Positions 6,063 to 55,200 of a stretch of 64,000 bases of DNA are shown here, piece after piece. A model generated the notes under the pieces. It ran no database searches. It had not been told where the DNA came from and saw only the letters and a program-made list of their open reading frames with translations. Each line of letters opens with the position of its first letter. Within the stretch, counting starts at the first letter, position 1. The stretch is from Erodium maritimum (Eukaryota; Streptophyta; Magnoliopsida; Geraniales; Geraniaceae). The position numbers and the translations under genes were made by a program. Location: the NCBI GenBank assembly GCA_963921825.1, contig OY997595.1:19027228-19091227 (forward strand), written 5' to 3'.

Positions 6063-6287
6063 TCCGTTTCTCCGGTTCACGTGACTGACTACTTCACATG
6101 CATTGCTCACTCAATCTCACTTTATATCAGCGTCAATACGTATATCACGTTTTCCTATCAACAACATACACCCTACGTTCGTCAGTACTTTCATCCGGAT
6201 ACATATAAATTTTCGTTAATATTTATTATTTATTCGTTGTGTTTTCAATTTTTCATCCCAGTCATCACCTTATTATATAATGTTAGA

Positions 6288-8772
6288 ATGTTATCCGATG
6301 AGTCATCCAAACCTCTTCAGCATTATCCACTAAGTCGCAGAGCCCTAAACCCTAGGGTTTTATGCGTGTTTCTACTTCCTCTGCAAGGAGTGGTGCCTTC
6401 GGTTCTCACCAGAGAAGATGACGGTGACATCAGGCGTGGGAGGGTGTGAGGCAGTCGGGGGAGGTGAAGGGGTCTGGGTGTCGGGCGATCCAAGTGAGGA
6501 GACGGCGCCTGTGGAGGCCGAGGATCAACCGCGGTCGGGTGAGGCAGCGGTGGAATCGTTCACGCCGACGGAGGAGCTCTCGCCGCGTGGGGGGGAGAGC
6601 CACCACATGACGTTCTCGGCGCAGAGCGTGGGTGTGACGGACAGTATGTCGAGGGGATCGAGGAGGGTCCATGGGGTGGTGAGGGGCAATACCAGGCGCG
6701 TTCAGGCGGTGGGGCCGCGTCAGAGGAAGGGAAAGGGGTCTCGCAGCGAGCAATCGACGAGGAGTTCGTCTGGAACTCGATGCCAGGATCGGAGGGGGAG
6801 TCGACGGGGTCGCTACGGGAGGGGATGGAGCTGATTTCGATCGTAGTATCATCGGATACGGGATCACAGGCGAATGAAACGCCGGAGGCGATGGCCTGGC
6901 GGCGAAGGAAAGGGAAGGTGTTGGTAGTCGACTCCGTTAGTGTTTTGGACGGGGGATCGGACTCAGAGACAGGGGCTCGGAGGTTGGCCAGGGCCTGCAC
7001 GCGGACGCGAGGCGTGGGTGGCGAGCTGGGCTGACTGGGCCTCACGGTCCGGGTGGACAGCAAGGCCCGGGCTGGCAGCCACGTGCGGGATATGGGCCAG
7101 TGGGTCGGGACAGTGGACCTAAGGCTGGGTGGACTCGGGGCGGCCCGAGGGATGTCGCCTGGTGGGCGGCCCGGGGGATGACGCCCGGTATGGAACCAGG
7201 TCGGGTCAGGGTCCGCGGGCGTCCTCAGCTCACTGAGCGGATCCGGGTCGTAACCCGACCCAAGCTGGGTCAGTCGGATCCGGTGCGAGGTTTTAATCCA
7301 TTTGGAGCACGGGGTAGTGATTGACGTAGCCCATGGGAACAGGTAGGGGACTTGGGATCACAGATGGGTTCGATGAGGATCAGGGAGGTCGTGGTGATGG
7401 TCCAGGAGGTCACAGGTCGGGGGAACCAGTACAGATTTGCGCTGGCAGCTAAGGTATTGACAACTAAGAAAATTTTCTAGAAGTCTGTGGTGGCTAAGAT
7501 GGAGGATATATGGGGCATGAAGGTTGATGTTAAACCATTGAAGGGGGGTCTAGTCGCTTTCTTCTTCATGACAACGAAGGAGAGGGAGAGAGTTCTGATG
7601 GGGGAACCTTGGTCCTTCTAGGATTCCCTTGCGCTATTTACGGACCTGCGAGCTCATATGTAGGTTAGAGATCTAGAGTTCCATCATTTCTCGGTTTGGG
7701 CGTGCGTCTCGAACTTACTTGTGGGTGCATGGACCAGAGATGTGGGATTCCGAGTGGGGAATGCATTGGGTGTCTGCCAAGGAGTGGATGTGGATAAGGA
7801 TGGGTTGTGCTGGGGGGATTTCACGAAGATCAGGATCATGGCGGACATCAGGGTACCTTTGCAGAGTCAGCTATGGTTTTGGTTATCGGTATCCCAGGTA
7901 CGAACTCGTCTGTATGTTTCTTATGAACATCTTCCTGAGCACTGTTTTGGGTGTTGTTGTGTGGGCCACTTGTTTCCAGCCTGTCCGGTGGTCGGAAGGG
8001 TAAGGGGCCCATCGCTGAAGGCGCCGGCGGATCCAAGATCCGCTCTGGAAAAGGCGAAACATTATGAAAAGGCTGCTCCGGGGACAAACTAGACATTTAT
8101 GGGGGGTCTGGGGAGAGGGGGGTCTAAACCGACTGGTCTAGGGACGCCCCTACAAGATCAGGAAAGGGAAAGGTTCGGGGGGCAGACGGACCATCGAGAT
8201 GAGGTACCAGTAGGATGGCTACCGATGGATCCCTCACCGTCTCTATCTGGAAAGAAAGGGGCGGAGAGGGACGAGGAACCTAAGGAAGAGGAGGGGTTGT
8301 CGGCGTCTGATGGGGCGTCATAGATAGCAGCGGGGGGCTTTAAGCACCCCCGCCTCCAAGAATGAGCTCTTGGGGGCCTAGGGAGGGGTTGGTCGACTGT
8401 ACCATCTGCCTGGCAGTTTGGTGGCAATGGTTCTGCCAACAGTCGTCAAGATGCTTCCCTACCACTTCGGGGTCAGCAATCCTTCGTTCAGGAGTCCTAC
8501 AATTATCATTCAAGGGAGGACGACGCACGCTGACTTACCGGGGGAGTTATCGGTCCACCACTATAAAGTTCACACCTGATATGCTCGATCAGCGTCTTAT
8601 GGTTGGAACATGTTGTATCGGTGTCTCTGGATCCTATGTCCATGAGTAACATTTACTATTCAGCATTTCTCTTTTAGTTTTATGTTATTTTTTTGGTTTG
8701 TATGGTGTTAGCCGCCTTCACGGTCACCGGAATGCTTTAATTAATAATATTATCATTTCGTTCAAAAATAAA
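6288..8772 (+). mobile_element. half-LINE B: ORF1 present, ORF2 deleted
   Basis: The insertion is bounded by identical 13-bp target duplications ATATAATGTTAGA (6275-6287 and 8773-8785). It keeps a 5' UTR (6288-6417) with CCCTAAACCCTAGGG, an ORF1 starting at ATG 6418, and a 3' tail ending TTCGTTCAAAAATAAA. ORF1 is degraded by several stops and frame changes. A long stretch at 7365-8092 still reads as a DUF4283-like region followed by a CX2CX4HX4C-type knuckle (HCFGCCCVGHLFPAC). About 8362, an ATG opens the conserved endonuclease start (MSSW...GLG), and within tens of codons this passes straight into the 3' UTR. Endonuclease, reverse transcriptase and RNase H are missing. It landed about 230 bp upstream of the TATA box of the NET-like gene. 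Confidence 0.85.
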
Positions 8773-8785
8773 ATATAATGTTAGA

Positions 8786-16390: not shown

Positions 16391-16407
16391 ATAAAACTAA
16401 ACACTAT

Positions 16408-16968
16408 CTGGGAAGAAATGCCTAGAAAGTGAGGAGGATCAGCTCGAGTCAGAGGCCTCGACAGCGTCTGATGGGGAGTCACAGGCAGCAGCGGCGGGGG
16501 CGTCAAGCACCCCCGCCTGAAGGAATGAGTCCGAGGTGGCCCGGGGAGGGGCGGGTCAACTTTGGCCCCTTCCCGGCGGATGGATGGCGACGGCACCATC
16601 ATCAGTTGATATTTGTCTCCCCTGCCAGTCCGGAGTCAGCAATCCCGCGTTCAGGAGCCCTACCATTATCATTCAAGGGAGGACGACGCACGCTGACACA
16701 CCGGGGGAGATGTAGGTCCACCAGTATTCCCCAAAACTTGGTTGGCTCGCCTCGTCCCATGTTGGAAGAAGATTGATGTATCGGTGTCACCAGACGCTAC
16801 CGCAGATTTCCCCTTCGTCCGTCAAACCCATTACCAGGAGCCAATTTTATTGCTTTCAGTTCATTTCAATTTGTTAGTTGGATGTTATGTAGGTGGGGTA
16901 CTTTTCAGTACCTACCAAACTCGTTTCTTATGATTTATTTATAAACTGCAATATTTACTCAAAAAAAA
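16408..16968 (+). mobile_element. 5'-truncated half-LINE C
   Basis: It shares with half-LINE B the end of ORF1 (CACCCCCGCCT then an ATG), the shortened endonuclease start (GGCCCGGGGAGGGGCGGGTC) and the 3'-UTR block CATTCAAGGGAGGACGACGC. It ends in CTCAAAAAAAAAAAA. Imperfect target duplications AAAACTAAACACTAT (16393-16407) and AAAACTAAAACCTTAT (16969-16984) flank it. B and C show the same ORF1-to-3'-UTR arrangement, so this structure was copied and did not arise twice. Confidence 0.75.
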
Positions 16969-35254: not shown

Positions 35255-36868
35255 TGTTTGGTCGGGGTAGGGTAAGCAAATTATAAACTTAGTTTATTAA
35301 GGGAAAATATTACAAATACGAATTCCAAGCTGATATCTTTGTCTAACAGCATGTACAACGAAAAGGTTTGGGTTGAGGGTTTGGATTAGGAGCTTGAATT
35401 TTTTTTTTTTTTGAGTAGATTGGTATAGCTTTATTGATTCAAATCACCCGCAAGGACCGAACGAATTACATCCGGAACTAAAACAGAGTTCCAATCATGA
35501 GATATCCATACCAACGCATTTCTAGCTAATAAGAAGTGAGCCACCGTATTTCCTGCACGCCTTACAAATTGCACTCGAACATCCCTTAGCGATTCTAGGA
35601 TTGCCTTGCAGTCTTGTATGAGGAGTCCGAACGGGGTCATCAGTTCGACCTCCCCATTTATGAGTTGCACCACTGTCAGACAATCTGACTCCAAACACCC
35701 TGTTTGCCACCCGTTTCTTCTGATCCAATCAAGAGCCTCCCGGATGGTTAACAATTCCGCTAACTCCGTGCTTGTGCAGTCTTCATGAGTCACACACTGC
35801 GCCGCTACCAAGGTCCCTTTATCATCCCTGCAGATCATACCTCCTCCTGCCAGCCTGGGGTTTAGAATTGCCCCATCCACGTTAATCTTGACCTCCCCTG
35901 GACATGGGGCAGTCCATTGAACCACCCGAGCTTCCCTGTTAATCACCATGGCCGGTTCTGTATGGGCGTCCTTCCAGTCTTGGCGTAGCCGCGTGGCTCC
36001 ATACCAAGCCTCCGATGAAGGCCGATTGTGATCCTTCCATACTCGCAGGTTCCGCAGTTTCCATAGCTCCCACCATAGTAGTAAGGTCATTTCTACTAGA
36101 TCCTTCTCCTTCTTCATGAATACCTCCGACAACCACCCCACGAGGTCATCGTCCTCGATCGGTGGCACCAACCTCAGCTTGGTCCACACCTCCCCGTGAT
36201 CTGCACACTCAAATAGTATATGGAGCTCAGTTTCTTCCCTCCCACACCTACTACAACCCGCCTCCACAGGGACATGTCTTCGCCTCAGGTTATTATTGGT
36301 TGGTAATGAACCCGTAAGAGCCCTCCAACCCATATGCTTTACCTTTGGCGGAACATCAACCCTCCAGAACGCCTTCCAAAAGTCGGCCCGAGGTGCCTCC
36401 GCCCAACGCCCCTTTGTCCGTTGTATGTTCCTGTAAACCTCTCGGACCTTGTAGTCCCCATTCCTGGACCCCCACCAGTACCACCCATCCTCCCTAGGGA
36501 GCCGAGACAACGGGATCGCCAATATCAACTCTGCGGTATCCTTATGAAACAGGGATTGGACCTTTCCTCTGTCCCATCGTGGCGCACCCTGCATCACTAA
36601 CTGCGAGACTGGCATCTCAGGCTCAATTCCAATCATGGGGTCAACCCATCTCCTATCTGCCGGCAGCCACGGGTGCCCCAGAATCAACGTGTTCTCCCCA
36701 TTCCCTATCCTTCTACGCACCCCCTCCTTGACTATATGTTGGCCAGCCAAAATGCTCCTCCAAATATAGCTATTCCCCTGTTTCTCAGTAGCATCTAAAA
36801 AGTCAGCATTCGGATAGTACTTGGCCTTCATCACCTGCGCTACCAGACTGGACGGTTTCTGCACCAGC

Positions 36869-38541
36869 TGTTGGGTCTCGAGGTAGGGTTGGAGATGAAC
36901 CAACTCGCAGCGGAAAATCAATGAAAACCAAGAGACAATTAGAAACATGAAACAACTAACAAAGAATGGATTAACAAGAGAAAAATTCAGCACTAGTTCT
37001 TACCAAAACAAGACCACCGGTTAACGAATGATTGGCTTGAGTCTCCAAGACGCCTACGTATCCACATGGGAATCAAAGCCATGTAGTTCTTCTCTTTGAG
37101 GACTCAAGAACACAAACATGGAGGTGGAAACTAGCCAAACCCGAAATGGTCATGGAAGAGGGAGAGAAAATGTGTTTCCTATTCTTGTCTTGTGTTTGTT
37201 ATGTTGAAAAAAGATGACTTAAACATAACAAAACCCATACTTGTCCAACTAAAGGCATGGGACAAGTATGGTGTCAAGTAAGGTGTAAATAGGACAAAGT
37301 ATGGCAAGACAAGATTGGGTTAGGTGGTGAATCACCAACACCTTAATCCTTGTCTTGCTTACTTAGTACTAATTAATCAAGACTTGATTAATTAGTTCCA
37401 TGGGCCTTTCATGGGCCTCTTGGAACATGGCCCGTGACCATTTCCAACGAGGTCCCGTGATTCGCTCATCGCCTCCATGCCTTCCATACCGGAAATGTCC
37501 AACATTATCCGACGCGATCAATCCCAAGACTCCAAGCCTTGTCTCGATCCGTAAAGTCCTATTCACTTACGGGCACATGACCCAAAACCCAGTTTTGGTC
37601 ATGTCCCGAGACAACTCCCTTTTGGCCATTCTCCATAAATGTGTCAATGAGTTTCATCCTCCGGTGTGACCCTTAGGTTTATGCATGTCAATAGATCAAC
37701 GTAAAATCCCATTTTACTTGATCCTATTTAAGTGGCAACTAACGAGACTTTAGTATTGCCTGACACTACATAACGAATCGACCCTGTCGATTCTAACCTT
37801 TCCGTCGTCCCTGTCATTATCCTTTTATCTCCGATATCCTGATTGAGATAAGGCATAGAGCCGTCATCCTTATTATTCTCAATCATCGTTCCTTGATATG
37901 TGAGATGACTGAAGATATGATACCCAGTATCATGTGCATGGCCATGCTATTCTTCCAGTCACTCTCGATCAAGTGGCCGAGAACCGATATCTTTCCCATA
38001 CCTTAGTATGAGGGATAAATCCCTTAGCCGTCTTTCGTGTCACTCATGTAGCCCGTCCCCAAGCCAATCTTGGCCGTTATGGAAGCCCTGTTACGGACAA
38101 CGTTAGGCTCAGGTCAAACTCAGTTGTTGACTACATAGCGATCACAAAGACTCCTTGGTCTAAGGATACATGACAAGCTACAACACTGAATATGTTCATG
38201 ACTTAATCTATGGCACATATTCAGGGCGGGTCGTCCAATATCATGTCCCACATGATATCTATGATCAGACTCCGGAATCTCATTCCAATGACTAACAGAA
38301 CGTAAGCCATAAAGAGCCATCTTTCATACTAGTCGCTTCTAGTGAAGCTTTGTTGACTAGGGACCCATCGAGTGTGATCTATCTCGATCTATGGTTCTAT
38401 TCGCATGGTGGGCATAGATCAGAGCACACATCGATATATTACTCCAACACATAAGTAATATAAAGCCACTTTAATTTTATTGCTAACGATGATATATACA
38501 TTTGGACATTTAGGATTGAACTACGGGCACTAAGACTAACA
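36869..38541 (-). repeat. 3' LTR of the copia element
   Basis: 1673 bp. In element orientation it runs from TGTTAGTCTTAGTGCCCG to CTCGAGACCCAACA. A purine-rich tract, AAGTGGGAGAT, precedes it on the element strand (38542-38552). Confidence 0.92.
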
Positions 38542-41500
38542 ATCTCCCACTTGTCCTAGTTCCAATCTAAACTCCAATATGTCCCCATCGACTTTACATG
38601 TCTAACATGTTCAGGCAGTGACACTGCCTTATTCAAAGGGTTGGCTATGTTATCATCTGTTGCAATATCGGTTATCTCCACTTCACCTCAGTTCAGTATT
38701 TATCTGATGAGGTGGATACGCCGCAGTACATGTTTGGATTTGTTATGCGATCTAGGCTTTTAGCTTGCGCAATGGCCCTTGTGTTGTCGCAAAATGGATT
38801 CACTGGACTGGATGAGTTTTTAATTACACACAGCCCTGCCATGAATTTTCAAATCCACATAGCCTCCTTAGCTGCCTCTGCAGCATCCATGTACTTGACC
38901 TCTGTCGTAGATTCGGCAATGGTATCTTACTTTACGCTTTCCCAGCTAAAGCTCTGCCATTCAGCGTAAACACATATCCTGATTGACTTCTAAAGTCATC
39001 TGGATTTGTCTTGGAAAACTAGCGTCTACTCATCCTTCGACGACTAGTTCAGCATCATCTTTCCCCCGGGTTAGAATGATGTCTACTGGTACAACATAAG
39101 GCTTACGAGACGTCTGGTCTCATACATGTCATGGCATATATGATCGATCCTGCCCCCAGGCGCATAGGATTCTCATCATCCTTTTCAGCTCATCAGATCT
39201 CTACATATCTTAATCCTTAAGATATGAGAAGCATCGCCTAAGTCCTTTATTGAAAAACACTTCCTCAACCAAGCTTTAGTCTCGTGCAAGGTTGGGATGT
39301 CGTTTTCAATGAGAACCAGAAAGGTAATATTGCTCCCACTAGCCTTCTTATAAACGCAAGATTCATCCTCGTTCTTGATTAAGCCAAATCCAATTACAGC
39401 TTCATCAAAACGAAGGATCCAACTCCGAGAAGTTCGTTTCAATCCATAAATGGATTTCAACAACTTATAAATCTTTCCTTTATTCTTCGGATCGTCAAAA
39501 CCTTTGGGCCGAGACATACAAACGTACTCAGTCAAATTTCCATTTAGGAAAGCGGTTTTGACATCCACTTGCCATATCTCGTAATTATGATACGCAGTTA
39601 TGTCAAGAAGAATTTGGATCGATTTTGACCATAGCCACTAAGGAGAAGGTTTCCTCATAGTCAATCCATTGGATCTGCCTATAACCTTTCGCCACCAGTT
39701 GAGCTTTGTAGGTCAGAGGGTTGCCGTCCATGTCCATCTTCACCTTGAAGATCCATTTGCATCCTATGGTCCTCACACCATTGATGGGATCAACCGGTTC
39801 CCAGACTCGGTTGTCCGACATGGATTGCATTTCCTCCCTCATGGCTCCCAGCCATAACTCGGAGTTGGGCCCATCCACGACTTCCTGAAAGGTGGCTGGA
39901 TCATCGTGATCCACCATGACTTCATTGTCACCTCCGGATACCATATCTTGGAGGTGGAAGATTGATCCTTTCAAATCGCCTTGGACCTTCCGGAATTGTA
40001 ACAGGAATTGGTTCTTACTCTACGACAATCTCTGGCTCCTTTCTACTGGGTTGCCAATTGGTTTAGACAGATCTGTACCATCCTGAATTTCTTCGAGATG
40101 CACAGTCCTCCCAATGACGTCTTTGGAAACAAAACTTCTTTTCCATAAAGACCCCACCCCAAGCGACGAACACCATGTTCTCACTGGGATTGTAGAAATA
40201 GTATCCCCTTGTTGCTTTGGGATACCACACGAAGGTGCATATCTTAGATCTTGGTTCGAGCTTAGTCGAAACCAAATGTTTCACATAAGCCTCGCAACCA
40301 CAAATCTTTAGGAAGGACAAAGCGGGCATCATCCCGTACCATTTTTAAAATGGTGTCCCTTCCACACCATTCGTCGAAGCCCGATTCACTATGAATGCGG
40401 TCGTCTCTAGAGCAAAACCCCTAAAAGAGATTGGGAGATCAGTCCAACTAATCATGGAACAGACCATTGTCTAACAATGTCCGATTTCTCCGTTTGGCTA
40501 CACCTTTCAACTACAGTGACCTAGGAGGAGTCCATTCCAAAAGGATCTCATTCTCTTTTAGATGATCTAATAACTCTGTGGTCAAGTATTTTCCACCTCG
40601 ATCCAATCGAAGTGCCTTAATACCTTTGTCGAGCTGGTTTTCTACTATAGTCTTAAACTCTTTGAATTTATCAAAAGCTTCAGACTTATGTCTCAACGAA
40701 GAGACATAACCATATTTACTGTAATCATCAGTAAATGTGATAAAGTAGTTAAAACCCCTCCTGGCAAGTGAACTTATTGGTCTACACACATTCGAGTGTA
40801 TCAGCCCCAATAATTCACCCGCCCTTTCATCGCGATCGATAAAGGGCACTTTAGTCATTTTGCCCATCAAACAAACTTTGCACCTATCGATCGAATGGAA
40901 TTCGAATGAACCTGAAAGCCCGCACTTCTGAAGTGCTGATAGGCGCTTCTTGTTTATGCGACCCAAATGACAGTACCATAACAGAGTTAGGTTTAAATCG
41001 TTGGATTTAGACCTCTTGGTATTAACGGAATATATAGAACTTGAGGCATTGTTACCCATATCTAATATGTACAATCCTCCAACCATGTCAGTACTGGTAT
41101 AAAACATATCATTGCATAGAACATTGAAAACTCCATTTCCAATATTAACATTATATCCTTCCTTGTCAAACACGGATACAGATATAATATTCCTACTAAA
41201 AGTGGGTATGCAATATACATTATACAATACTAAGACAAGGCCTCTTGGCAAAGCAAGACTCATGAATCCTACAGCAGTTGCCACAACTCTGAGGTCCATT
41301 TCGTGCTTTCCAAATCTCTCCTACTTTCAGCCACCATATATTAGTGCATGTGTGAGATTCAGTCATGGTATCTAATACCCATGAATCTTTGGAAGTAGAG
41401 AGATGTAGCTCTATAGAGTTAATACCGAATGAAGGCACGATCCCACCGCCCTTCCTTAGATCATCCAGGTTTCCTGATGAAGGCGCAGTCCTACTGCCCT

Positions 41501-43470
41501 TCTTCAGATCATCCAGGCTATTTGATGAAGGCGCAGTCCCACTGCCCTTCTTCAGATCAGCCGTGAACTTCCTGTAATCCCGGTTCCAATGACCAGGCTG
41601 TTGGCAGTAGAAGCAGACATTCTCAGGTGTCTCATCTTTCCTGCCAAGTGCGCATGGGCCCAGCCCTTGCCACTTCCAATTCCCTTGTTGACCATCAGAA
41701 TATCCTTGGATCCCAGATCCCTGAGATATTCTTCTCAGCAGCTGATGACACTTCATGTAACTCTGATATGGTCTTAGAGACAGCCTTGTCAAGGACATAT
41801 TCTTTGCGTTCAGACTTGAGGACTATCCTCAAAATTCTGTACCAGTCCAAATAGTTTGTCCCATTTAGCTTGACCCTGTCAAGAATGGTTTTTAATGACA
41901 AACTATTAATGTTCGCTGAATTTGCCATTTGATCTACAACAGATAAAATTCAATCAGTAAACTGAATAAATTTTATGAAGATCAAGCTTAAACACCAACA
42001 ATCAATTCTAAACCTTTAGAATCTGAAACCAAGATCCTTGATTCACTCGATTAAGCTGAACTAATGCTCACCACTTAATCGAGCTATGTAGGTAGGACTC
42101 CATCCAATCACATCCAATGTGACTCTTGGCTAGGGTATGTACTTATGTACACGGCTTACCCTATCTGTTACCCTAGCTCAACCTCAGGCCGAGAATCGTA
42201 GTCGGGTCCACCAATTTTCAACTATGGCTCGTCACTATGTAGGTGCTCCGCTAATGCGCACGACACCCACATATGTCGTCCAAACCTACTACCCCGCTTC
42301 CCCATGGATGCTCCGCTAATGCGCACGACACCCATAGGACGGGGAGGTAGTAAGGTGTTGATGATTGGGAGGTATCGGACATGACCCGCTTTTACTTGTC
42401 CAGTTGTGTTCAAAAATTTGGCACATCCTAGATGCGATGAGCACATCAACTACATTCCAAATGCAATGATGCCTCAAATTACATCCAATGTAATTCTTCC
42501 TTTGAACCCTTCAACTACATCCAATGCAATGACGGTTCTAAGGGTTCACACACAAGGATTAAAATTCCAATTTTATCTTTGCATGTGAGGTGATATGCTC
42601 GGTAAATGAAGTTAAGCATGCAATTCTAAAACACATAGAATTAATCATGCATAAACTAAACCAAGCATAAAGCGATAAATGTGCACATAATAGCCCCCTA
42701 AACTAACTCCCACTAGCTTCTTGAGCTCCACCGACTCCAAGCCGATGCCAACACCCGAAAAGCCACCAAATGACCTTTTCGCCCTTTCTTCGTCTTGAGT
42801 AAAATATTACAATTTAATACACGACTCGCAGGTCGGGAATAAATAAATATTACAAACAAGTGGTTCGACGACCACACCTTGAAAGAATAATTACACGCTA
42901 ACTCTAACGGCTCGCAGGCCGTGAAAAGCGATAAATAATTAAATCGAGCTCAGGGCTATTATGTACACCATGCCAACATCACATCACACATCGTGTTATC
43001 AAACAAGCATGTTATCAAACATCATGTGATTTTCTGGTTTTAATTAATAGCCAAGTTTCGAAATTTTTTGATGCTCGGTTTATCGAAACCGTTCAAAAAT
43101 GAAACTTTTGAACATTTGATCTTCGAGTTCATCATGACGGTTCCAAAATCGTCATAACTAACAAAACGGTTTAGCCTTGGCATATCAACCATCTAATGGT
43201 CATGCTTGGCCTAGCTCCGTCCAACGGAGCCCCGTTCGGTCCCGGTTTCGGCTCCCCGAGAGTCCCGCTCCCGAAACCCGAAAAATCAAAAAAAAATTCA
43301 AAATTTCCAGATTTGAAATAATTTTCAAAAAATCATTTTACATGTATTAAATCCATAAACAATAATTTAAAACATGTTATCAAACAATTTAGCAAAACAA
43401 CATGCCAAAAACGAAACTTTCAAGCAAAACTGAAACTTTGAACACCGTCTTGTGAATCCCGAAGGTAGCA

Positions 43471-43484
43471 CGGCTCTGATACCA
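43471..43484 (-). other. primer-binding site of the copia element
   Basis: Just inside the 5' LTR the element strand reads TGGTATCAGAGC, complementary to the 3' end of initiator methionine tRNA, the usual primer for plant copia elements. Confidence 0.85.
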
Positions 43485-43485
43485 C

Positions 43486-45158
43486 TGTTGGGTCTCGAGG
43501 TAGGGTTGGAGATGAACCAACTCGCAGCGAAAAATCAATGAAAACCAAGAGACAATTAGAACCATGAAACAACTAACAAAGAATGGATTAACAAGAGAAA
43601 ATTTCAGCACTAGTTCTTACCAAAACAAGAACACCGGTTAACGAATGATTGGCTTGAGTCTCCAAGACGCCTACGTATCCACATGGGAATCAAAGCCACG
43701 TAGTTCTTCTCTTTGAGGACTCAAGAACACAAACATGGAGGTGGAAACTAGCCAAACCCGAAATGGTCATGGAAGAGGGAGAGAAAATGTGTTTCCTATT
43801 CTTGTCTTGTGTTTGTTATGTTGAAAAAAGATGACTTAAACATAACAAAACCCATACTTGTCCAACTAAAGGCATGTGACAAGTATGGTGTCAAGTAAGG
43901 TGTAAATAGGACAAAGTATGGCAAGACAAGATTGGGTTAGGTGGTGAATCACCAACACCTTAATCCTTGTCTTGCTTACTTAGTACTAATTAATCAAGAC
44001 TTGATTAATTAGTTCCATGGGCCTTTCATGGGCCTCTTGGAACATGGCCCGTGACCATTTCCAACGAGGTCCCGTGATTCGCTCATCGCCTCCATGCCTT
44101 CCATACCGGAAATGTCCAACATTATCCGACGCGATCAATCCCAAGACTCCAAGCCTTGTCTCGATCCGTAAAGTCCTATTCACTTACGGGCACATGACCC
44201 AAAACCCAGTTTTGGTCATGTCCCGAGACAACTCCCTTTTGGCCATTCTCCATAAATGTGTCAATGAGTTTCATCCTCCGGTGTGACCCTTAGGTTTATG
44301 CATGTCAATAGATCAACGTAAAATCCCATTTTACTTGATCCTATTTAAGTGGCAACTAACGAGACTTTAGTATTGCCTGACACTACATAACGAATCGACC
44401 CTGTCGATTCTAACCTTTCCGTCGTCCCTGTCATTATCCTTTTATCTCCGATATCCTGATTGAGATAAGGCATAGAGCCGTCATCCTTATTATTCTCAAT
44501 CATCGTTCCTTGATATGTGAGATGACTGAAGATATGATACCCAGTATCATGTGCATGGCCATGCTATTCTTCCAGTCACTCTCGATCAAGTGGCCGAGAA
44601 CCGATATCTTTCCCATACCTTAGTATGAGGGATAAATCCCTTAGCCGTCTTTCGTGTCACTCATGTAGCCCGTCCCCAAGCCAATCTTGGCCGTTATGGA
44701 AGCCCTGTTACGGACAACGTTAGGCTCAGGTCAAACTCAGTTGTTGACTACATAGCGATCACAAAGACTCCTTGGTCTAAGGATACATGACAAGCTACAA
44801 CACTGAATATGTTCATGACTTAATCTATGGCACATATTCAGGGCGGGTCGTCCAATATCATGTCCCACATGATATCTATGATCAGACTCCGGAATCTCAT
44901 TCCAATGACTAACAGAACGTAAGCCATAAAGAGCCATCTTTCATACTAGTCGCTTCTAGTGAAGCTTTGTTGACTAGGGACCCATCGAGTGTGATCTATC
45001 TCGATCTATGGTTCTATTCGCATGGTGGGCATAGATCAGAGCACACATCGATATATTACTCCAACACATAAGTAATATAAAGCCGCTTTAATTTTATTGC
45101 TAACGATGATATATACATTTGGACATTTAGGATTGAACTACGGGCACTAAGACTAACA
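43486..45158 (-). repeat. 5' LTR of the copia element
   Basis: 1673 bp, the same length as the other LTR and nearly identical. Short frames found twice in the window (for example at 37369 and 43986) are LTR sequence and not genes. Confidence 0.92.
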
Positions 45159-47946
45159 CCAGCCTCCATCCTTGTTTTGCCAGTAACGCTATATTAAAAT
45201 CCTCCAAGAACTTAAACCCCAAACCTCCTGCCGACCGATGAGCACACAACTTACTCCATCTCTTCCATTTAATACTTGTCCCTTTTTTCACGTCGTGGCT
45301 CCACCAATACCGATTAATTATAACCTCAATCTCTTGTATCAAACCCGTTGGGATTTTATATACTCCCATTGTGTAGGTAGGGAGAGACTGGATCACCGCT
45401 TTGAGCAACACCTCCTTCCCGGCCTTGCTCAACAGCAGTTCGTCCCAACCCTGCAATCTCCTTACTATCATGTCCCGTATAAAAGAAAAACTCGCATACT
45501 TACTGCGGCTAATTGACGAAGGTAAACCTAGGTAGAAACCTTGGTCCTCAACTTCTCTCATGCTCAATATACTTCGTACTTCACTTCGCACATTTGGAGG
45601 GGTATTCGGGCTAAACATCACTGATGATTTATCCAGGTTTATTTTCTGTCCCGACGTCCTCTCGTATGTTCTCAGCGTCTCCTTCCACGCCAGCGCCTCA
45701 CCTGCAGACGCTTTCGAGAACAAGAAACTGTCATCAGCAAAAAACAAATGTGAGATGGTTGGTTCTGTTCTCGCCACTTTACAGCCATGTACCCGGCCAT
45801 CCCTTTCGCTTCTACGGATCAAACGTGATAGCCCCTCCGCACAAATGATAAACAAATAGGGGGATAGTGGGTCCCCCTGTCTGATTCCCCTCTCCAGTCT
45901 CAGCGGACCCAGTCTCCGGCCTTCCACGTCAACCCACAACCGCGCCGTCCGTACACAAGTCATCATAAACTCATACCACAACGGGTGGAAGCCCATACGA
46001 TTCAGCACTCGCTCCAAATAGTTCCATTCAATGTGGTCATACGCTTTGCTCATATCCAATTTCATCGCCATCAACCCTGAGCTCCCAAACTTCCTTTGCC
46101 GGAGGTAGTGCAAAGTCTCTCCCGAAATAATTATATTGTCGGTGATCAACCTTCCTGCTAAAAACGCACGCTGAGTTTCAGAGATCACTTTATGCAGCAC
46201 TCCTTCAATCGATTCACCATGATCTTTGTGATAACCTTGTAGAGCACATTACACAGGGCAATCGGCCTAAACTCGCCCACGTGCTCCGGTTTCTGTACCT
46301 TCGGAATTAACACCAGGTTCGTGTCATTCAGTTCCTCCGGTAGCCTTCTCTCCCGAAAAGCCTATTGGACCATTTTAATTACTCCCTCTCCCACGATACC
46401 CCAATACTTCTGATAGTACCTCGGGTTAAATCCATCCGGTCCTGGAGACTTTAAAGGCTCCATACTAAATATCGCTGACCGAACTTCACTCCGAGTAACC
46501 GGTCTAAGGAGAACCACGTTATCGTCATCTGTAATCTGCTGCGGAATCAACGTACTCACTTCGTCTACATCCTCCGGTTCTGCAGCAAATAACAAGTTAA
46601 AATGATTAGTAATCTCCTCCTCTAGTCCGTTCTCCCACGAGACCCATTCACCATCTCCCTTCTTCAAATTACGAATGGCTCTTCTCCGCCTCCTAGTCGA
46701 CGCTTTTGCGAAAAAATATTTTGAATTCACGTCTCCCCCCTTGAGCCAAAATTGTTTCGTCTCTGCTTCCACATCAAGTTTTTATGCACTAAGAGTTCAT
46801 TCATCCTACTCCGCAGACATTGAACTCGGCTGCCCTGATTCTCGTCTTGCTGCAGCAGAGTCTCATTCAGTTGCTTCTGTACATCCCTTAGTTCCCTTTC
46901 CAGCCCGCGATGCTTTTCCCTAGCCCAACCTGCCAACGCCTCTGCCACCTTCAGGTTACGTTGCACAATTGGTAAGTGCGAGTTCAGCTGCCACACTTCT
47001 TGGACTATCCTTGCGCACTCTTCGTCTCTACTCCAACATTGTTCGAACCTAAAGTTGTGTTTGCGCCTCGTGAATTGCTCTTTGACCCCATAAACAAGAA
47101 TTGGCGCATGATCAGATGACGACAAGCCCCCATGCACCAATCTCGAGTCCGGGAAAAGTGTCATCCATTCTCTGTTCACCAACGCACGGTCCAGTTGGGA
47201 CTCCATGCCGTCACGTATGTGGCGACTTTTCTCCCAAGTAAACTGGTGCCCCTCAATGCGGAGATCTTGCAAACCACAATCCTCCACCGCTTCCCTAAAG
47301 CCCGTGATTAAAATTGGGTGGGTACGCCTGTCCGCCCCTCTGATCGTCTGCACCCATGACATTGTTGAGGTCCCCAAACACTATCCATAGTCGTCCGTCA
47401 TTTCGGGAAGCAAGCATCCTCATCAACCCCCAAGTTTTGAATCTCAAATCTCTGCTCGGTTCCCCATACAACCCGGTCACCCGTATTACGTGGCCATCCC
47501 TTGTGGTGAAAGACATATCTACGTAATCCTTTCTGTAAGTCTGCAGCACACCATCATCCTTATTTCTCCACAACATCGCTACCCCTCCACCTGCACCTCT
47601 CGGGTTTACTGCAAAAGCACCGTCATAGCGCACAACTCTTCTAATCCTCTGAATCACCTTATCTTCCACCTTCGTCTCACTTAAGAAGACAAAATCGGGC
47701 TTCTTTTGAGTAATATACTCGATAAGGAACTTTTCCGCCCCAGGGTTCCCAAGCCCTCGGTAGTTCCAAGCAAAAGCATTCATTGGGACTGGCGGGGTTG
47801 CTTCGCAACCTTCGCCAAGTCATCCATCTCATCCTCCTGAGGAGCAGGCATTAGATTACCAGGCTCCAGATTCAGATCGGCAGTATTCGCGTTCAACCTT
47901 CTCTTTCCCAACTTCTGCCCCTTTTCAGCTCCACCCCCATCTGGGC

Positions 47947-49083
47947 CTATCTCGGCCCCACCTCCACCCTTCGAACAATCTTGTAGGATTTTAAATTTGG
48001 TTTCTGTTTTCCCTCTAGTTCCATACTGTTAGTAGGTGGACCCCTACCCTTTGTTGTCTCCAGCGAATCCTTTAAAAGGCTTAAAGCTCGTGTCACAGAC
48101 ACTTCTCCCTGATTCTCCTGTGGACCCTGTTTCCCACCTTTCTCCTCTAACCTTCCATCCTTCACAGACCGTTCTCCATCAATCCTCATCCCATGTTGCT
48201 CCACCTTATCTCCCCACAATGAACGTCCTTTAGATGTCAGATTAACTCTACTGTCCACCAACATGGGATCCAACAAGTTGGATCCCTCTCTCATCCCTGG
48301 TCCTGCCTCCTCACGAGGTCTCTCCCCAGCTCCATTTCTCGATCCCCCCGTCGGGTTAGGCGCTTCAACCCTCATGTGGGGACCAAATTTACCCAGCACC
48401 TTCGGCTTCTCTGGGTCATCCTCACAATCCTTTTCCGTGTGTCCCAACCGTCCACACTTGTAGCAAAATTCAGGCAGCCGTTCATATTGAAGTCTAACAA
48501 TTGTCGCTTCCGCATTCCGTCCCAGTGTAATTCTGGTCGTGTTCCTCAATGGTTTGCCTAACGCCCATCGTACCCGAATTCGTAGAAAATCCTCGGGTGC
48601 CCTACCCTCGTCATTCAACTCCGCTTCAATAAACTCCCCGACTCTATTGCCGATCACCTCCGCCACAACTCCAGTCAGGGCATTGAATGGCAAGTTTGAC
48701 GCTTGAATCCACATAGCAGTGGAGTCGAATTTCAGTTGCGAAACTTTGACCGCCGGAGAAAAATTCTCCATAACGACTAGGGCCTTATTGAATTGCCAAG
48801 GTTCCATCTCTAACACTTTTCTCTTTTCCCTCTCCGTTTTGAAGAAGAAACCCGTTACATCCGGGGCTAGGGTTTGGGTCAGCGCCTCCTTGGTGTTCCA
48901 TGCGTTTTTCATCACAGTACGAAAGATCTCGTCCTTGTATTTCCTCCCAGTAAACACCTTCACCGCTAAACCTATTTTGTATTTCTCATCCTCCATATTT
49001 AGCACCTCCTCATGAATTACTGGATCCTCCTCATCGTCACTATCTATCACCACCCCCTTCAACCTCTCCTGAAGCTCATCCAT
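47947..49083 (-). CDS. LINE ORF1 protein (DUF4283 plus zinc knuckle)
   Basis: An intact frame. I take ATG 49083 (MDELQERLKGVVIDSDDEED) as start, giving 378 aa; the open frame extends 12 codons further upstream. Residues about 40-180 are the DUF4283 module typical of plant LINE ORF1 (WNTKEALTQTLAP, FNKALVVMENF, MWIQASNLPFNALT). A CX2CX4HX4C knuckle, CYKCGRLGHTEKDC, follows, then a long charged, disordered tail. ORF1 proteins bind LINE RNA. The stop is 164 bp before the ORF2 start. Confidence 0.9.
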   Translation of the reverse strand: MDELQERLKGVVIDSDDEEDPVIHEEVLNMEDEKYKIGLAVKVFTGRKYKDEIFRTVMKNAWNTKEALTQTLAPDVTGFFFKTEREKRKVLEMEPWQFNKALVVMENFSPAVKVSQLKFDSTAMWIQASNLPFNALTGVVAEVIGNRVGEFIEAELNDEGRAPEDFLRIRVRWALGKPLRNTTRITLGRNAEATIVRLQYERLPEFCYKCGRLGHTEKDCEDDPEKPKVLGKFGPHMRVEAPNPTGGSRNGAGERPREEAGPGMREGSNLLDPMLVDSRVNLTSKGRSLWGDKVEQHGMRIDGERSVKDGRLEEKGGKQGPQENQGEVSVTRALSLLKDSLETTKGRGPPTNSMELEGKQKPNLKSYKIVRRVEVGPR

Positions 49084-49869
49084 CCCAAAAACACAAAACT
49101 GATCAAAAAAACCAAACACAAACAGTACCTGTTTCAGACGCCAGCCACAACCCCACTGCCTCTTCTCTCCCGTAAACGTACCCTACCTGTGAAACAGAGT
49201 ACGACAGCCACAGAGTAATCGCACAACCGGACGAAGTCGATACCTTCCCACACGGTACCTTGCTTGGCGGCGGCACCCGAGACCTGCTTCAGACGCAAGC
49301 TACAACCCCTTCTACCTCTTCTCTCCAGTAGCGCACACAACCTCTGAGACCCAAGCAGACCAAAAGGACTGCAGAAAAACCACAGCCCCGATCACCAAAC
49401 TCTCCCTCCCGATCCGTTACAACAATCTCCCCACAGCACGCCCTGAAACTCCGCCTGTGAATCTGAACTGCGCACTCTCTATGGGATCTCTTTTCCGGAC
49501 TGACGCCGATAAAGCACCCATTGAACCGAACAAGGTCGGTACCTTCCTCCACACGCACTAGAGACGGCGGAACCCTAACCCTTGAGAACCGAGAGAAAAC
49601 GGACCAAAGGACAGGAGCTTGAATGTTGACAGTACAAAATAGTGAGATGTAAGACTTAAAATAAATTGTGTTCCACATTGGTGAGTCCCGTATAAGGTCT
49701 CGTATTGAGAGTGGACCAATCGTATTTAGTTAAATCTGATTTTCTATATTAAAAAAAACACGTGTCGAGCAACCATGCGACACATGATGCACGTCCCGGG
49801 TCCCGGATTAGCGGGACGCCGGACGCAAGCCACGATCCGAACCGTTCCGTTGGGCGTGCTCTAAGGTAT

Positions 49870-52830: not shown

Positions 52831-53194
52831 TGCTTCCGGCTGCGAATTCGATCGACGAGTGCAATTGGTGGCCTGCAAACGAGGTGGAGGTGAGGCCCGA
52901 CGACTATAGATAGTCTAGAGGTGGACGGTCGACAAGACGAGCCTCGGTGATGCGAGACAAAGACGGAAAAGGAACGACTGTGAGTGGAAAAACCAGGAAG
53001 TGAATGACGTGGATGGTTGGAACAGGCCGAGAAAGGCTCCCACCGATAATTCTTATAGCCAAATCCATAGTTGTTGTCCATAGTGGTGTAGAAAACAAGG
53101 AGAAAGAGTAGGTTTCCGACAACAAGAAAAAGAGGAAGTTTCTATAAGGAGAGAGAGAGAGAGATTTTTTGACTAAAAGGTACCTAGATTTCAC
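52782..53194 (-). pseudogene. orphan 5' end of an unknown gene (leader and first exon)
   Basis: On the minus strand a CT-repeat leader (CTCTCTCTCTCTCC, about 53150) leads to ATG 53081 and a frame starting MDNNYGFGYKNYRWEPFSAC, Ser/His/Pro-rich, running to 52782. The leader looks like a plant 5' UTR. Half-LINE H is inserted immediately upstream. I recognise no domain and no downstream exon. It may be a truncated gene once divergent from RPB12, or chance. Confidence 0.25.
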
Positions 53195-55200
53195 TATTAA
53201 TAAACGAGAGTTCTTATACTGTATAAAGCCTCATAAGGTCTCTTTACAAAAACTCTAGAACAAATGAACCGTCATAAACGGTGTGGAAGAAGCCATATAG
53301 GCAAACTGAAAGTAAATTAAGACGAAACCAACGACATCTGCTCAAGGTGTTGCCTAGATGTTCCATACTCTGTAGAATGCGACCGAACCTTAATCTGTTA
53401 GCTTCATAGGGGGCCAAGCTCGAACTAAGGACCCCTCTTGAGGCCAGTATATTAAGCCATGAATTCCTTTCATTCCTCCCGGCGGGGTTGTTTTGCACCC
53501 CTCGCCTGATCCTCCCGGGGTTCCCTTACAGTGTCCCTCTTCTGACCCAACCTTCCTAGGTGCAACATTCCCAATGGAGCAGGCTGCCTCCCAGAGTAGA
53601 CAGATGGTACCTTGGACATTCCCCGTTGGCCCATCACTTCTTGATGGTTAGGTGGGATATGCGAGGTTACAATTGACTTCCTTTCGCGAGGTGGTGGTGT
53701 CTTAGCTGGGATAACCGAGATCAACGGTTCGAAACATGGGGGACACTGTGGTGATTTCCCTCAATTTATCGCATACCTCTTGGTTGTCTAATCCTGATGA
53801 TATTCTAACAACGACTTGTCAAAGCGGGGCACACCTGGCTTCTCCCGATCACATGCATGCGGTGTATGACCAATCTGATCACATTTGCCACAGAAGGTCG
53901 GTAGTTTGGTGTAAGTGAGAGAGAAACAGATCGGGTCTCGGAATTCCTTAAACCATAGCAGGAGGCTCTAGCGAAGAAGACGGTCCACAGAGTGCCAGAA
54001 ACGCACTTTGACCGCTCATCCCCAATATTTTCCTCCTCCATCGCATGGCGTATCCACATAGGAACTCAAGGAAACTCTAAGTGGTTCCCTTGTCCTTCTT
54101 GTCATTACCATCGGTGGGGTACCATGGTCATGGACCCACAGCTGCAGCCGAGACAGAATAAGAAGGTCCCTGGGCAACGAGTCTATGTCCCCAAATAGGA
54201 GGGGTGACCTTCAAAACACCATGGTTCGTTAACCCGGATCTAAGAACGAGCCTCCTCGGTTGCAATGAAAACTGAAAACCCTGACTCAATATCTTTGATG
54301 AACATGCCATCTTCCGATCATCCCCTTGCATTGATGATGATCCGCAGTAGGGTTTTCTTCAGAGGGAGGCTCGGGGCCAGATGCTTTCCGACCATCCCAA
54401 ACTGTTGACGAGCTAGCACCCACGGATCCACAGATGCATCGGGGATCAGAATCTCCATATCGTTCTCCTCCCCAACCGAACAAGTAGATAGACTCTCTTG
54501 GAGGTTCGTCATTGGGGATACCTTCAGATTGGGCGGGATCATAACAACCGGTGCAAGAACGACCTCTGATGGTGATGGAGGCAGTTCCCCTTAACGCATC
54601 AGAAAAGTTGGGATATGAGGGATGGAAGGAATGATCGGGATACAGTCGACATTAGGTAGTGGTAATGGCACGCACGGCGCGAAAACCCCCTACACACGCC
54701 TGAACCCTTGATCCAAGGGGCACGATACCAAAGCACGCACCGAGTCAACGAAACCTGGTGGTTCAGAAGCCTCATCAAGGGTCAGAGGAGACGACAGACG
54801 ATTACTTACGACCGACACAAGTAGGGTTTTGGGTGGTCGACCCCATTTTAGCGGCGCACATGGAAGTTCTAGGGACGAAGACCCTATAGAGAAGACGACA
54901 ATCGTCGTAGAGGGAGGCGACAAAGGAAAAGTTGGGTTCATCGCCGATATTAAGATCGTGTTCACAAGCTTCGACTTTCTATTCCGACGCCCTTCTAATG
55001 AGCTAATCACATCCATAGAGGGGCGTGGTGACGGAACAATTATCTCTTCTCCCATTAAAGATGAAAGCGGTGAGGGGATACATGCGATGGCTATAGGGGT
55101 GACAGTTACAGGTGATGGTAACGATATAAATATGGTTAGGGTTTTCTCAAAAGAAACATACGACTAGCATAAGAGAATTGAGTAAATTCGAGCACATGTT
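53165..55200 (-). mobile_element. half-LINE H: degraded ORF1, ORF2 deleted
   Basis: Reading leftward from about 55200, an ORF1 leader and N-terminus (55055-54690) are followed by a DUF4283-like region (LPLKKTLLRIIINA; SQGFQFSLQPRRLVLRSG), a zinc knuckle (about 53900-53850, CDQIGHTPHAC) and a basic tail ending GAKQPRREE with a stop at 53470. Just after, at about 53482, a frame reading MKGI.SW matches the start of LINE endonuclease (MK.ISWNCRGLG). It then passes directly into a 3' UTR that ends AGTCAAAAAA at about 53165. Many stops and frame changes make it older than the 35400 LINE. Target duplications are uncertain because both flanks are CT-rich. Confidence 0.7.

Follow-up and report, generated by a model that had tools for sequence, protein, structure and literature searches.

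An ORF2-less family of L1-type retrotransposons with a selected ORF1 in the genome of Erodium maritimum

The locus studied here carries a LINE-type insertion in which ORF1 leads, past the first codons of an endonuclease, straight into a 3' untranslated region (UTR). This raises the question of whether it is a broken LINE or, as proposed in an initial annotation of the sequence, one member of a dispersed family of half-LINEs, i.e., units of ORF1 and a 3' end that are mobilised in trans by full LINEs and in which the ORF1 protein may itself be the retained useful part. The latter would be contradicted if most genomic copies contained a full ORF2, if the junction were limited to this window, or if the junctions were independent random deletions. 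The window, i.e., the whole stretch of DNA analysed (64,000 nucleotides), corresponds to C8:19027228–19091227, and the genome searched comprised 763 Mb in 40 contigs. The results point to what is probably a long-established L1-type family of non-autonomous retrotransposons with several branches, in which units of ORF1 and 3' UTR form lineages of their own.

The element at 6288–8772 is an ORF2-less LINE flanked by an exact 13-nt target site duplication (TSD), with the following features:

6275–6287 (+): left copy of the TSD, ATATAATGTTAGA, 13 nt, matching the right copy
6288–6332 (+): private 45 nt between the TSD and the common 5' end
6333–6417 (+): common 5' UTR; many genome matches begin at query 42–49
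6418–7342 (+): N-terminal part of ORF1, its frame broken in the window copy; putative start codon at 6418
7343–8365 (+): ORF1 core, including a DUF4283 RNA-binding-like domain and a zinc knuckle, CX2CX4HX4C
8362–8400 (+): probable remnant of the ORF2/endonuclease start, about 12 codons, MSSWGPREGLV, its ATG overlapping the ORF1 stop
8400–8772 (+): 3' UTR module, about 370 nt, joined directly to the ORF2 start
8703–8729 (+): 3' stem-loop, in a weakened form in the window copy, with compensatory changes across copies
8734–8772 (+): A/T-rich 3' tail, GCTTTAATTAATAATATTATCATT..., A-rich at its end
8773–8785 (+): right copy of the TSD, 13 nt, matching the left copy

The 13-bp duplications, 5' UTR, ORF1, 3' tail and direct join of ORF2 start and 3' UTR described in the initial annotation were all found, with one correction: its 5' UTR held for the common part from about 6333, and the first 45 nt (6288–6332) proved private to the window copy. 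Among the other 39 loci scored in the genome search described below, no match began before query 42, and 6288–6332 was common to them by only 1–4 nt. Apparently unrelated sequence of about 13–50 nt between the TSD and the common 5' end was also observed in TSD-bounded copies; such extra bases are carried by the window copy (6288–6332), L002, L003, L004, L017, L018, L020, L034 and L043, and L039 has almost none. They perhaps stem from transcription that began upstream, in the flank of the source, or from a switch of template at the 5' end.

The ORF1 core ends in a conserved tail, GGFKHPRLQE, followed by the stop TGA (8363–8365), which is overlapped by the ATG of the ORF2 start (8362–8364). Five in-frame stops in the core (7343–8362) marked the window copy as decayed. 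In the relative of this core in L039, a match to DUF4283 was obtained (PF14111, E 4e-12, 46.3 bits vs. a cut-off of 27.2); PF14392 scored 17.4 bits, under its cut-off of 27, and the CX2CX4HX4C motif was identified by eye. The reading MSSWGPREGLV at 8362–8400 was set against MSxWNxRGLG, which we take to be the pattern of LINE endonuclease starts, and MSTWNPRKGL was read at this place in some family copies. No endonuclease or reverse transcriptase (RT) was found in 6288–8772 by tblastn with the ORF2 pieces of the window's full LINE (best E 0.17).

Further ORF2-less copies were located in the window:

16404–16968 (+): copy C, a 5'-truncated relative with the same join of ORF1 end and 3' module and its own 3' hairpin
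53187–54141 (−): deeply diverged ORF2-less copy; ORF1 remnant match at 54141–53830 with a zinc knuckle
819–961 (−): diverged ORF2-less copy; ORF1-type tail PRLDK-stop/ATGAGT (961–937) and module-related word (833–819)

Copy C had been annotated with the same join, and rightly so. As for the copies D, E and H, named without positions and said to share the design near the endonuclease start, two further deeply diverged ORF2-less copies were recovered, not three. The copy at 53187–54141 (−) has the tail AKQPRREE-stop/ATGA at 53490–53466, a hairpin at 53226–53208 and a 3' tail at 53204–53187; neither its 5' end nor a TSD was found. The coordinates of the copy at 819–961 (−) give the mapped part of its extent. 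With up to 3 mismatches allowed, the junction motif (23 nt) and a module word of equal length each had two places in the window, vs. 0 expected from 100 shuffles. The window also contains an L1-type LINE at 35431–49680 (−), with its ORF2 split by a large insertion whose ORFs at 39.2–41.8 kb appeared Copia-like by eye. The ORF1 of this LINE is likewise of the DUF4283 type, shares 28% identity with the half-LINE ORF1 (E 2e-23), and is followed by an ORF1-stop/ORF2-start overlap of the same kind (47800–47776, −).

A genome search with the entire element as query gave 3,995 first-look candidate loci, of which 40, with 73–100% identity, were scored; three further matches were pieces of loci already counted. 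At 38 of the 40, window copy included, ORF1 is followed by the junction and then by the 3' UTR, with no ORF2, and the two others end at query 1564 (3'-truncated) and at query 2130. The exact 23-nt motif of ORF1 stop and ORF2 start was present in 520 genome copies (reversed control 0), and the module 9-mer TCAGGAGCC lay within the allowed range downstream in 339 of them (65%), with 181 lacking it. Among the 100 listed of these 339 places, the span was 152 nt in 87 and 151–153 nt in 98. As a calibration, the 9-mer was retained in 14 of 20 fetched motif copies with a known direct join (70%; 95% interval 46–88%), a value possibly too high or too low genome-wide, the 20 copies having been picked by similarity to the window element. 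The observed 65% is close to this 70%, as expected if nearly all 520 motif copies carry the join, and about a quarter of them could be exceptions to it. Beyond the window, six module copies at C2:567390–597925 recur at a spacing of 6,076–6,077 bp, i.e., as a tandem array containing the half-LINE 3' part, and six of the 339 junction places belong to this single array. These counts agree with a family that is dispersed, as first suggested: copies with a full ORF2 are not the majority among the scored loci, and the junction is found across the genome rather than in the window alone.

Exact flanking repeats of at least 11 nt were detected at 12 of 51 element ends, vs. an expectation of 0.18 derived from mismatched flanks. 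Four of the 12 (L010, L017, L018, and L020) had had their 5' boundary placed from the repeat itself, and excluding these left 8 of 47. No TSD of at least 11 nt was found at the other 39 ends, for some of which the 5' limit of the element could not be located; L053 likely has a 16-nt TSD 2.4 kb further out. ORF2-less units were thus dispersed by retrotransposition with target site duplication. Taken together, the missing RT and the TSDs suggest mobilisation in trans by the RT/endonuclease of full LINEs. A search for a partner LINE was negative: the stretches behind 10 LINE-type RTs, not all of which may extend to the 3' end of their element, had nothing in common with the family's 3' tail.

Selection on ORF1 was assessed in an alignment of 339 codons from 29 copies taken from the genome matches (L015 without its first fifth; second cuts of a locus already present excluded). 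Changes were mapped by parsimony on a FastTree tree whose internal branches represent source elements, and expected counts were obtained by dealing the same changes to random sites of equal base and CpG context. On internal branches, 407 synonymous (S), 147 nonsynonymous (N) and 11 stop-related changes were counted vs. approximately 170, 369 and 26 expected, giving an N/S ratio of about 0.17 for these 29 copies of the sampled subfamilies; third positions received 395 of 565 changes (187 expected). The ratio on terminal branches was 0.65, mostly reflecting post-insertion decay. L039 and L052, despite 18% divergence, have zero in-frame stops or indels across the 339 codons. Purifying selection thus acted on ORF1 in the sampled lineages of source elements, which lends direct support to the initial guess that ORF1 is a part retained for its usefulness. 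Over approximately 276 nt around and after the ORF1 stop, internal N/S ratios in the three frames were 1.02, 1.16 and 1.02. Since these values are close to 1 in all frames, coding constraint stops at about the ORF1 stop and is absent in the tested part of the 3' UTR module, which is the expectation for a monocistronic ORF1 gene.

Distances in ORF1 and in the module were correlated (Mantel r 0.51, with 0 of 2000 permutations as high), and four of the five clades named from the ORF1 tree reappeared in the module tree, the fifth being absent, which indicates that junction and ORF1 largely descended together. The constant spacing and this agreement between trees speak for the junction being a single inherited event, as far as can be judged from aligned copies. 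The sampled copies, which are decayed, are old: the mean pairwise difference between them was 17% for ORF1 and 12% for the module.

The alternative that survives best is a rare autonomous parent with ORF1, ORF2 and the module as its 3' UTR, of which half-LINEs would be spliced or precisely deleted offspring, produced repeatedly but sterile; the selection on ORF1 and the agreement between trees would then belong to the parent lineage, with half-LINEs founding none. A single exact spacing among copies is also expected from splicing. Moreover, at C4:64497260–64503340 (−), beyond the window, an ORF1-bearing 5' part, with the ORF1-core word at 0 mismatches, extends to query 2130, adjoining the junction, with the module end and the exact tail some 3.7 kb beyond. 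The ORF2-start junction thus holds additional sequence of about the size of an ORF2, in the expected place. This locus may be a full-length relative, and as such the autonomous parent or partner, or else a nested insertion or two neighbouring copies, which would give the same picture. However, the pattern is confined to 1 of the 40 scored loci, 38 of them being without ORF2, whereas a full LINE should leave full-length copies too. The ORF2 start GAATGAGY followed by WNCRGLG codons had 0 exact places in the genome, this being a narrow pattern that misses even the window LINE. Overall, we consider such a parent an unlikely explanation.

The half-LINE module is far more widespread than ORF1. With up to 3 mismatches allowed, a 41-nt module word occurred at 1,323 genome places (reversed control 0), and a 41-nt ORF1-core word at only 40; as the latter search would recover 24 of the 29 copies in the alignment, the close ORF1-bearing subfamilies amount to some tens of copies. 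The remaining module copies are truncated, lack the ORF1 core, or belong to distant subfamilies outside the selection sample. In L034 the 5' part of the element is kept and the ORF1 core is deleted (17-nt TSD), and units of type X (L010 and others) keep a small ORF1-like piece (12-nt TSD). For type Y (L017, L018, and L020, with TSDs of 16, 15 and 19 nt, respectively) and type Z (L029 and others), blastn gave no match to the element besides the module, which is 90–92% identical among L003, L010 and L017. The module copies from the word search included L069, a 5'-truncated half-LINE with a 15-nt TSD, L070, without the ORF1 core, and L071, the module alone. Those in L069 (2292–3184) and L070 (2280–3201) adjoin apparent host genes, the one beside L070 presumably resembling an RNA-binding protein gene. 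Because TSD-bounded relatives without the ORF1 core exist (L010, L017, L018, L020, and L034), ORF1 in cis is not indispensable; it is favoured or helpful rather than essential.

The presence of the same module on the other 5' bodies of types X, Y and Z indicates that 5' exchange does occur, and it would also suit a scenario in which ORF1 evolves in autonomous LINEs and is template-switched onto a mobile 3' module, half-LINEs gaining nothing from it. Against this, the ORF1 and module trees agree for four of five clades, the selected region stops at the ORF1 stop and the module spacing is unchanged, which together make such a scenario quite improbable. That half-LINEs arose by independent random deletion or decay of full LINEs, their likeness being a coincidence of the window, is hardly credible: truncation at the 5' end, rearrangement or decay affects many fetched copies, but the single junction spacing genome-wide (98 of the 100 listed spans within 151–153 nt) already contradicts it, as do the agreeing trees, the TSDs around ORF2-less units and the nested subfamilies.

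The 3' stem-loop was evaluated in 46 sequences, after exclusion of L069, L038 and the four copies whose tails differ. Pairing was found in 89.9% of 437 cells, vs. 87.7% after shuffling and 24–59% with partners slid; double changes occurred in 6 of 10 pairs (shuffled mean 2.9) and in 20 cells (shuffled 9.8). RNAalifold, unprompted, recovered the inner helix with double changes in three of four pairs, at only −1.9 kcal/mol. For three stem pairs, 8 to 11 of 45 sequences were unpaired, and when tails were scanned one by one, the best hairpin fell at the stem-loop site in about 31 of 51, from a by-eye reading of the list. Judging by these predicted structures, the 3' end carries a conserved, covarying stem-loop of the kind that characterises stringent-type LINE/SINE 3' ends. 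The exact 24-nt tail was present at only 33 genome places, so the tails are subfamily-specific; the module word lay at its normal distance at 21 of these, 8 more were recognised as half-LINEs by other searches, and 4 were left over. L052, L053, L054 and L057, an ORF1 half-LINE subfamily, were observed to share the module and to differ in the last stretch from query 2349, indicating that 3' tails have been exchanged or replaced.

Under the preferred reading of an old half-LINE family, an ancestral plant L1 would have been stripped of ORF2 from just behind its first codons up to the 3' UTR; the resulting monocistronic unit would then have founded lineages of its own. Half-LINE RNA would be translated into ORF1 protein that binds the same RNA in cis, and the endonuclease/RT of an autonomous L1, acting in trans, would recognise the stem-loop and tail at the 3' end and insert this RNA through target-primed reverse transcription. 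Sources whose ORF1 works would leave more offspring, generating the selection on ORF1, and relatives with the 3' module that lack the ORF1 core would also have moved, presumably by means of both proteins in trans. We tentatively propose, as possible rather than probable, a three-tier chain of parasites in which L1 gives the endonuclease/RT, half-LINEs contribute their own selected ORF1 in cis, and other-bodied module units use both. If this were true, the ORF1 protein alone would be the unit of selection in an enzyme-less element, as an independent long-lived clade. If RT-less elements keep ORF1 at the internal N/S ratio given above, the protein probably prefers the RNA that encodes it. The family would offer a test bed outside mammals for the role of a LINE ORF1 protein toward its own RNA, and comparing ORF1-bearing and ORF1-less relatives with one 3' module would measure the advantage that ORF1 confers. 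The family is also relevant to the question of 3'-end specificity in plant L1s, and it calls for caution in plant annotation, as ORF1-only copies are not necessarily broken LINEs.

Several known systems share parts of this design. HeT-A of Drosophila telomeres is a Gag-only, RT-less non-LTR element, telomeric and of another clade; it resembles the present family in having a Gag/ORF1 protein without an RT of its own, whereas the plant family is dispersed with TSDs. With plant L1-clade LINEs, the family shares an ORF1 with DUF4283, as in the window's full LINE, and a zinc knuckle, the ORF1-stop/ORF2-start overlap and the 3' stem-loop. The lineage ME1 of these LINEs is described as having stringent 3'-end recognition and a stem-loop with a variable stem near the 3' end, but its loop and flank letters (UCU, CGAG) differ from those of the family (PMC3747384). 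ORF2 is absent from the window copy and from 38 of 40 loci, leaving the family without an RT for placement in ME1. ZmSINE2, ZmSINE3 and TS SINE are described as non-autonomous units paired with plant LINEs through a LINE-type 3' end (PMC3747384), which the ORF1-core-less L010, L017 and L034 resemble; compared with these plant SINEs, the family is longer (1.3–2.5 kb) and has a coding ORF1 in the members studied.

The closest likeness is to the half-L1 elements (HAL1) of mammals (Bao and Jurka, 2010, as cited in PMC5753468 and PMC5322556). HAL1 is described as derived from L1 and coding for ORF1 alone, with TSDs and a poly(A) tail, and is considered to rely on full L1s for RT/endonuclease (PMC5753468; PMC5322556), with nearly 2,100 human copies (PMC5322556) and several independent origins (PMC5753468). 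The half-LINE design is the same in the plant family, i.e., ORF1 kept, ORF2 absent, a direct join, TSDs, and an ORF1 maintained in the sources. The family differs from HAL1, as portrayed there, in its plant host, an ORF1 with DUF4283 and zinc knuckle, the covarying 3' stem-loop and a single junction that fits the sampled copies; it also has sister units without the ORF1 core on the same 3' module, and the selection on its ORF1, with its end at the stop, was measured in the present analysis. The ORF1 protein of mammalian L1 is a coiled-coil protein. As the ORF1 of the family is of the DUF4283 type (PF14111, E 4e-12) and related to that of the window LINE, the family was not classed as HAL1 proper, which is of mammalian descent. 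No plant half-LINE counterpart was found in the literature, for which open-licence papers were searched, and the claim of newness is limited to that scope. Within it, the design is the one already known from mammalian HAL1, and what is new is a plant family of this kind, with a selected ORF1, no coding constraint after its stop and a covarying 3' stem-loop.
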